NCBI GenBank assembly: GCA_947491985.1
Contig: CANLLR010000004.1
Coordinates: 1-64,000, forward strand
DNA from: Flavobacteriaceae bacterium
Lineage (GTDB): Bacteria; Bacteroidota; Bacteroidia; Flavobacteriales; Flavobacteriaceae
Length of the DNA: 64,000 nt
Direction: 5' to 3'
The notes under the pieces are model-generated. The model was not told the DNA's origin. It searched no databases and worked only from the letters and a program-made list of their open reading frames with translations. Shown piece after piece: positions 649 through 1,330 of the stretch (positions within the stretch are counted from its first letter, which is position 1; each line of letters opens with the position of its first letter). A program made the translations under genes and the position numbers.

Positions 649-721
649 GCGAAAATAGCTCAGTTGGTAGAGCGCGACCTTGCCAAGGTCGAGGTCGCGG
701 GTTCGAGCCCCGTTTTTCGCT
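649..721 (+). tRNA. tRNA-Gly (anticodon GCC)
   Basis: Cloverleaf: GCGAAAA/TTTTCGC acceptor, AGCTCAGTTGGTAGAGC D-arm, CTTGCCAAG anticodon loop, GGTTCGAGCCC T-arm. Confidence 0.97.
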
Positions 722-750
722 CTTTACCATAGAATTAATTTATTTAATTC

Positions 751-818: not shown

Positions 819-904
819 GCTCGGATGGTGAAATTGGTAGACACGCTGGACTTAAAATCCAGTGAACAGCAATGTTCGTGCGGGTTCAAGTCCCGCTCTG
901 AGTA
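819..904 (+). tRNA. tRNA-Leu (anticodon UAA)
   Basis: GCTCGGA/TCTGAGT acceptor with G-U pairs, CTGGA-CTTAAAA-TCCAG anticodon arm, long variable arm, GGGTTCAAGTCCC T-arm. Confidence 0.96.
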
Positions 905-905
905 C

Positions 906-939
906 AAAAGCTCCTTTCTTTATAGATTGGAGCTTTTTT
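906..939 (+). terminator. Intrinsic terminator after tRNA-Leu
   Basis: AAAAGCTCC ... GGAGCTTTTTT. Confidence 0.8.
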
Positions 940-1242
940 GTTTTTATAAAAAATAAGGATATGTTTTTTGTTTGTATAATTCATTTTTCAAAACTCGATA
1001 GTTATTATATTGGTACGACTGATGATGTTGTAGAAAGAGTAAATGAGCATATTGAAGTTCTTTATAAAGGCGCTATACCTCTAAAGGAATACCTTGGGTT
1101 TTGTTTTTAATTTTAAAAGTAAAAAGTTGTGAGTTGACGTATAAATTAGAATCGTTTATAAAGAGAATGAAATCTAAAAAATTTATTGAAAGTGTTATTG
1201 AAAATCCAGCAATTTTTGAAGAAATTCAAAGTAAGTTTAGTT

Positions 1243-1312
1243 GGGTTCAATCTCTAAGCTACGGGACCGTACTCAGCACAAAAGCTCCTTTATTTTCGAC
1301 TAGAGCTTTTTT
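1243..1312 (+). repeat. Second, degenerate copy of tRNA-Leu 3' end plus terminator
   Basis: gggttcaa (1243-1250 vs 882-889) and acaaaagctccttt (1278-1291 vs 904-917) identical; AAAAGCTC...GAGCTTTT hairpin follows. Confidence 0.75.
1280..1312 (+). terminator. Intrinsic terminator inside the duplicated tRNA-Leu tail
   Basis: AAAAGCTC ... GAGCTTTTTT. Confidence 0.7.
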
Positions 1313-1330
1313 GTTTTATGAGGTAAAAGA

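Follow-up and report, generated by a model that had tools for sequence, protein, structure and literature searches.

The window, by which we mean the whole 64,000-nucleotide stretch of Flavobacteriaceae DNA analysed here, carries two tRNA genes on its forward strand near its start. ARAGORN predicts a tRNA-Gly(gcc) at 649..722 and an intact tRNA-Leu(taa) at 819..905, the latter being the target gene of the element described below. The order mutS, tRNA-Gly, tRNA-Leu recurs in about 20 Flavobacterium loci. On the same strand, the tRNA-Leu gene is followed by a first terminator (AAAAGCTCC...GGAGCTTTTTT; 906..944) with an inverted repeat at 906-919/924-937, which separates it from a GIY-YIG nuclease pseudogene (961..1242) whose relatives lie at tRNA-Leu(taa) genes. 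Next, also on the forward strand, come a decayed pseudo-tRNA-Leu tail (1243..1279), made up of GGGTTCAA, the remnant of a palindrome and an acceptor 3′ end, and a second terminator (AAAAGCTCC...AGAGCTTTTTTG; 1280..1317) that is an 84% similar copy of the first. The palindrome remnant, at about 1251-1266 on that strand, reads TCTCTAAGCTACGGGA for CTCCGAAGCTTCGGAG. In most relatives a DUF1508 (YegP-like) gene follows the tRNA-Leu gene; it is missing from positions 906-1458 of the window, and the decayed element stands in its place.

An earlier note, made from the sequence alone, had claimed that the tRNA-Leu 3′ end and its terminator recur downstream with a GIY-YIG gene between the two copies. 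The repeat is confirmed: positions 893-944 and 1267-1317 are 83-84% identical at an offset of 373-374 bp, and their local alignment score of 57 was reached by none of 1000 shuffles (maximum 29). The gene, by contrast, is broken. One frame runs from an ATG at 961 to a stop at 1110, and a second, at 1101-1255 (about 1116-1255 of it continuing the gene), holds the C-terminal half, with a frameshift between them. A whole-genome scan gives seven internal stops in the match, whose score of 22.1-22.7 bits straddles the PF01541 cut-off of 22.6. Because the GIY-YIG domain survives in pieces only and scores at the Pfam cut-off, we read the window element, with its frameshifted nuclease gene and decayed tRNA tail, as a fossil.

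Whether the repeat extends beyond a generic terminator, as the same note supposed, depends on what is compared. Within the window, the tRNA part without the terminator scores 18, a value equalled or exceeded in 233 of 1000 shuffles, and is not significant alone. Against the intact tails found at the same tRNA in related genomes, positions 1243-1279 align over 37 columns without a gap, a match found in none of 2000 shuffles. It is therefore the comparison with these relatives, and not the window repeat alone, that identifies the tail as a tRNA copy. The 8-nt block gggttcaa, to which the note had drawn attention, belongs to this 37-column match.

Occupied and empty tRNA-Leu(taa) loci

We searched 400 Flavobacterium genomes for relatives of the window copy, using a 49-aa N-terminal piece of its nuclease. 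The nearest relatives (loci L377-L387) have mostly intact GIY-YIG ORFs with 44-57% identity over about 40 aa. All but L382 have an intact tRNA-Leu(taa) beside tRNA-Gly(gcc), which amounts to about ten other Flavobacterium genomes; L382 lies at the edge of a contig that still includes the tRNA 3′ end, just upstream. In nearly all of them, the GIY-YIG gene is followed by the tail GGGTTCAA-CTCCGAAGCTTCGGAG-CCGCTCTGAGTAC, or a near match to it, and then by a second terminator. The exceptions are L385, without an ORF that passes the profile, and L386, which is truncated. Judged by alignment, the window tail at 1243-1279 is a mutated version of this sequence.

The note had also suggested looking for empty tRNA-Leu sites, and these are present in about 20 syntenic relatives. 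There, the element-free locus consists of mutS, tRNA-Gly, tRNA-Leu, usually DUF1508, a small lipoprotein gene and an S46 peptidase gene. A clean pair is formed by the occupied locus L380 and the empty loci L029, L030 and L031; identity between L380 and L029 is 93% upstream and 88% downstream. In L380, a stretch of 48 bp is present twice, on either side of a 326-bp insert with the GIY-YIG gene as its sole gene content; the three empty loci have it once. This stretch comprises about 13 nt of tRNA 3′ end and 35 nt of terminator. With one genome per species, the empty site could also derive from an L380-like site by clean deletion between the 48-bp repeats.

Two further loci, L027 (genome G023) and L034 (G028), have the tRNA-Gly(gcc)/tRNA-Leu(taa) pair tandemly amplified, with up to five tRNA-Leu copies and no nuclease gene in the stretch read.

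A family of tRNA-linked nuclease genes

A profile built from 13 tRNA-linked GIY-YIG proteins gave bimodal scores in Flavobacterium. Matches above 65 bits mostly follow a same-strand tRNA at a distance of a few dozen bases, and the rest of them are later copies in tandem arrays, copies at contig edges, mirror forms (see below) and copies behind a truncated tRNA. Matches below 63 bits are UPF0213-like and lie away from tRNAs, the one exception being the decayed second copy of a tRNA-Pro array. Some UPF0213-like genes occur as tandem or neighbouring copies (L068, at G071:C63, 600-2700; L055/L067; L069; L070). Those of L068 have the motif TTCGACTCCGCTCAGCCTGACA to either side of them, within arrays whose repeats measure about 101 bp, and look like a separate association of GIY-YIG genes with REP-like repeats.

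If GIY-YIG ORFs behind Flavobacteriaceae tRNAs form cassettes, each should be followed by a partial repeat of its own tRNA, as the note had pointed out. The tail fits its own tRNA above any other isotype in 69 of 76 Flavobacterium tRNA loci (median score 59.5 versus 28). When the rest of the phylum is included, a broken copy of the own tRNA forms the tail in 90 of 111 loci behind an intact tRNA, and 21 lack a recognisable tail; these loci were drawn from the best-scoring matches, with one genome per species, and are not phylogenetically independent. Together with the empty sites, the own-tRNA tails support the proposed layout of a tRNA-targeting cassette: tRNA, nuclease gene, tRNA 3′ remnant.

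The family occupies more than a dozen tRNAs throughout Bacteroidota, including those for Val, Met (initiator type by sequence), Ala, Pro, Asp, Asn, Arg, Leu, Ser and Phe. In the phylum, 121 of 299 genomes have a match at E 1e-18 or better. Beyond it, where the Met-type protein was the query, single loci of the same plan occur in metagenome-assembled genomes labelled Melioribacter, KSB1, Gracilibacteria, Saccharibacteria and others, among which binning errors are possible. With the Val-type protein as query, 50,697 phage records gave no match and plasmids gave one distant match, so that the element looks chromosomal. We found no description of this bacterial family in the open-licence literature.

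An intact element consists, in order, of the intact tRNA, terminator 1, a gene for an 80-93 aa GIY-YIG nuclease, a shortened version of that tRNA in which a perfect palindrome replaces or interrupts a part, and terminator 2. The unit measures about 320-450 bp, and tandem arrays have periods of about 315-450 bp and 2-6 units or more. A mirror form (for example, L107, L154 and L159) starts with a broken tRNA, consisting of the 5′ part and the palindrome and lacking the 3′ half, and continues with the nuclease gene and an intact tRNA. The earlier note described neither the palindrome in the tail nor the mirror form. In the loci inspected, the GIY-YIG gene is the single ORF, and the unit has no tyrosine or serine recombinase and no Y1 HuH transposase. 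Rfam scans of four loci detected tRNAs only, uninterrupted and with no intron.

Four short contigs of F. cheongpyeongense (L353, L355, L361 and L363; 213-399 bp) are element sequence throughout, as expected of a collapsed tandem array, or possibly of a free circle. Five other loci (L256, L259, L260, L264 and L267) have at least one pseudo-tRNA-Ala without a GIY-YIG gene directly upstream of the intact tRNA-Ala(ggc), with a palindrome replacing the anticodon arm. These GIY-less copies resemble non-autonomous satellites. The tRNA-Ala(ggc) gene is single-copy in the 12 genomes checked.

Palindrome, nuclease and terminators

A palindrome with arms of at least 6 bp is present in 82 of the 90 own-tRNA tails, the other eight having none at this stringency, compared with 25/111 control stretches upstream and 10/111 inside the gene. 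By this measure, inserted palindromes number somewhat fewer than 82: for nine tRNA-Val tails the longest palindrome counted was the native T-arm, although a second one can usually be seen there as well. For most lineages the inserted palindrome has a set position, where it stands in for the anticodon arm; in Leu(taa), it lies in the T-loop. The last and first tRNA bases kept around it are 27/45 in 13 Ala tails, 28/45-46 in 17 Val, 28/46 in 6 Pro and 37/48 in 17 Met. The replaced bases are accordingly 28-44 in Ala, and also in Arg(tct), 29-44/45 in Val and Pro and 38-47 in Met, while Asp tails have lost 39-50 or 52-59.

The palindrome is also conserved in sequence. CTCCGAAGCTTCGGAG is identical in 12/12 Leu(taa) copies, whose nuclease genes average 69% nucleotide identity. 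The arms are TCCCG/CGGGA in 16/16 Ala copies and TCCGC/GCGGA in 31/37 Met copies, and across the family they are constant within a lineage (TCCCG/CGGGA, TTCCG/CGGAA, TCCGC/GCGGA or TCTCG/CGAGA) and complementary in every one. Palindromes of the TCCCGATAGCTATCGGGA type are found elsewhere in the 12 genomes searched, at 1-30 per genome versus 0-1 for a reversed control pattern, mostly outside the listed element loci.

The nuclease is a single GIY-YIG domain of 80-93 aa, in which Y7, Y18, G20, R28 and E65 are invariant among 13 family proteins. An AlphaFold model (pLDDT 92.9) has its best fold matches in UPF0213 and the branched-DNA nuclease Slx1, which are the nearest solved structures by sequence as well, and no separate DNA-binding domain is predicted. 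Sequence and model together place the protein in the GIY-YIG family. Median dN/dS values of 0.13 (Val), 0.11 (Met), 0.15 (Ala), 0.15 (Pro) and 0.31 (Asp) indicate purifying selection.

A tree of the nucleases, whose deep branching is weakly founded (81 columns), has 30 changes of tRNA isotype versus 98 with shuffled labels, a clustering that owes something to shared inheritance among relatives. Leu, Met, Val and Arg(tcg) each form a largely coherent lineage, Leu and Met doing so across host families. The window nuclease cannot be placed because of its long branch.

The two terminators bear on how the tRNA 3′ end came to be complete. In four Val loci (L094, L092, L091 and L097), terminator 2 matches that of unoccupied Flavobacterium tRNA-Val genes, and terminator 1 does not. 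Terminator 2 of L094 also fits other tRNA-Val copies of the same genome. Terminator 1 matches that of other elements in L094, L092 and L097, and L091 is undecided on this comparison. In four Ala loci (L074, L123, L124 and L129), a host match exists for terminator 2 only, as judged from a single unoccupied control (L253). Host controls were unoccupied tRNA copies only; searches with the flanks for element-free Val and Ala loci in near relatives supplied the unoccupied tRNA-Val controls and gave few syntenic matches, because the flanks diverge between species.

The earlier note held that insertion rebuilds the tRNA 3′ end. For part of the family this is supported, because the host-type terminator lies behind the tail and not behind the intact tRNA in these eight Val and Ala loci. 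The two terminators are alike in L062, L114, L153, L165, L065 and most Leu(taa) loci. In Leu(taa), both are usually host-like, and rebuilding is therefore inseparable from simple target duplication, with which this lineage is equally compatible. More generally, two host-like terminators would be expected from target duplication or gene conversion no less than from rebuilding.

For tRNA-Val, a cleave-and-rescue drive with a recoded tRNA was considered and rejected: the intact tRNAs are identical in occupied and empty loci. One genome, G128, has an occupied tRNA-Val (L094) and two empty copies (L236 and L243).

Possible mechanism and related systems

We propose that these loci represent a family of minimal tRNA-borne mobile elements, which would enter by recombination with a resident tRNA gene, with a nuclease break at the position marked by the palindrome, and of which the window copy would be a dead member. 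We consider the chances of this proposal to be about even. It builds on what the sequences show directly (the architecture, the own-tRNA tails, the palindrome position set by lineage, the terminators of the eight loci, the empty site, the selection on the nuclease and the tRNA-specific nuclease lineages), and also on the precedent of SegB, a GIY-YIG nuclease that cuts tRNA genes and amplifies them in tandem together with its own gene (PMC13096335). A more specific version is more tentative, and we hold it with somewhat less than even confidence: the single-domain GIY-YIG nuclease would cut a palindromic hairpin in the tRNA copy and move into and out of tRNAs by recombination, rebuilding the tRNA, with the GIY-less copies as satellites. 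This would be a new class of minimal autonomous bacterial mobile element, present in several phyla.

The recombining unit would consist of palindrome, tRNA 3′ part, terminator, nuclease gene and tRNA 5′ part, and its partner would be the resident tRNA gene. A crossover in the 3′ part would give the window's layout, and one in the 5′ part would give the mirror form; the two layouts and the tandem arrays are all as expected from single crossovers between tRNA repeats. The resident tRNA would retain its 5′ part and gain a new 3′ part and terminator, and its native 3′ end and terminator would be displaced downstream, behind the palindrome. The nuclease would make the break that starts recombination, at the position marked by the palindrome. 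Its likelier substrate may be the palindrome as a hairpin or cruciform, in the manner of Slx1, and the uninterrupted tRNA gene is the less likely one. We infer that the element is mobile at present and that the GIY-YIG enzyme, by making this break, is its mover.

Classic homing is somewhat less probable. In that case, the nuclease would cut the uninterrupted tRNA at the later position of the palindrome, repair from the element allele would copy in the new 3′ end and the nuclease gene, and the palindrome would only block re-cutting. In its favour, nuclease lineages go with particular tRNAs in different host families, each lineage has its own fixed palindrome position, and the ownership of the terminators is as homing predicts. 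It also has the better precedent, both in SegB, which cuts within tRNA genes (PMC13096335), and in the mORFs of fungal mitochondria, which replace the 3′ ends of host genes (PMC3630166). Moreover, it accounts more simply for spread to empty sites: breakage of the palindrome alone would drive no such spread, whereas cutting of the empty tRNA would. Against it, the palindrome is conserved beyond the need of a mere blocking insert, and the modelled enzyme would have to act without a separate DNA-binding domain. The intact tRNA-Val has the same sequence in occupied and empty loci and is thus not protected by recoding, and the occupied and empty copies coexist in G128. Because of these two points on tRNA-Val, and because of the conserved palindrome, the Slx1-like fold and the GIY-less palindromic copies, we favour the palindrome by a small margin over the empty tRNA as the site of cutting.

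It is unlikely that the element is passive, its spread and amplification left entirely to host homologous recombination acting on tRNA repeats, with the nuclease as a passenger or in another job. Every layout can indeed be written as a single crossover between tRNA repeats, and GIY-less palindromic copies exist, but selection on the nuclease, the fixed position and conserved arms of the palindrome, and the same association in several phyla all speak against passivity. A unit that serves the host is quite improbable; in it, the tRNA mimic with its palindrome would act as a regulatory RNA, or would shield the tRNA gene from integrating phages as a decoy attachment site, and the nuclease would guard the site. 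The 3′ halves of tRNAs are common phage attachment sites, most tails retain this half, and the element looks chromosomal (no phage record and one distant plasmid match with the Val-type query). However, a selfish element is suggested by the decayed copies, the patchy presence, the arrays that reach six units or more and the derivatives without a GIY-YIG gene, and the broken copy of the mirror form lacks the 3′ half. That an ordinary tRNA duplication, an intron or an integrase island merely mimics a cassette is very improbable and at odds with the survey. Tandem tRNA-Gly/tRNA-Leu duplications do occur in Flavobacterium (L027 and L034), but duplication would not yield own-tRNA palindromic tails behind a GIY-YIG gene in 82/111 loci; the four loci scanned with Rfam have uninterrupted, intron-free tRNAs, and the insert that distinguishes L380 from L029 holds the GIY-YIG gene alone.

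If the proposed recombination with resident tRNA genes is true, few known protein-coding mobile elements would be as small as these, which would be common in Bacteroidota and reside on tRNA genes without breaking them. A single unit would combine a GIY-YIG nuclease, a tRNA gene and a palindromic repeat, and its existence would account for GIY-YIG ORFs that seemingly start or end inside tRNA sequence. The elements would also parallel, in bacteria, SegB and the 3′-end-swapping elements of fungal mitochondria. With occupied and empty sites and fixed palindrome positions, the mechanism is directly testable.

Several known systems share features with this family. Phages, integrative and conjugative elements and tycheposons use integrases to insert at tRNA 3′ ends. 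They have in common with the present element the tRNA target, the rebuilt 3′ end and the duplicated tRNA end at the far side, but the present element totals about 350 bp and has a GIY-YIG nuclease instead of a tyrosine or serine recombinase. In REP/RAYT systems, short palindromes are tied to a small transposase-like gene, and Rickettsia palindromic elements lie inside genes. Short palindromes are the common feature here; in contrast to REP/RAYT, our element has no Y1 transposase and its palindrome has a fixed place within the copied target tRNA. UPF0213 and Slx1 are nearest in structure, and UPF0213 is likewise a single small GIY-YIG domain, but these are cellular repair-type or uncharacterised proteins outside any tRNA-bound element. 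Unlike a group I intron with a GIY-YIG ORF, the element leaves the tRNA uninterrupted, and Rfam finds the four loci scanned intron-free.

In T-even phages, tRNA plus segB is amplified in tandem by homologous recombination, driven by SegB, a free-standing GIY-YIG homing endonuclease that shows no preference among the many isotypes with which it co-localises (Chihara et al. 2026, PMC13096335). As in our family, the nuclease gene adjoins tRNA genes and forms tandem units with them, but SegB is phage-borne, and the available part of that report describes no palindrome-bearing tRNA copy (PMC13096335). Our family is chromosomal, as far as the 50,697 phage records searched with the Val-type protein indicate, encodes a single domain of 80-93 aa, is tRNA-specific by lineage and has own-tRNA tails.

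In fungal mitochondria, mORFs replace the 3′ ends of atp6 in Allomyces and of atp6, atp9, cox2 and nad3 in Glomus; most encode LAGLIDADG enzymes, and one Glomus case (atp9) is GIY-YIG (PMC3630166). There too, the host gene is completed by a foreign 3′ end that comes with an endonuclease ORF, and its native end is moved downstream, but the targets are mitochondrial protein genes rather than bacterial tRNAs, and the available text mentions no palindrome in the displaced end (PMC3630166). The present family resembles these mORFs in that an element-borne 3′ end appears to complete the host gene in four Val and four Ala loci, and in that relatives have empty alleles, both in the pair L380 versus L029/L030/L031 and in about 20 syntenic loci.
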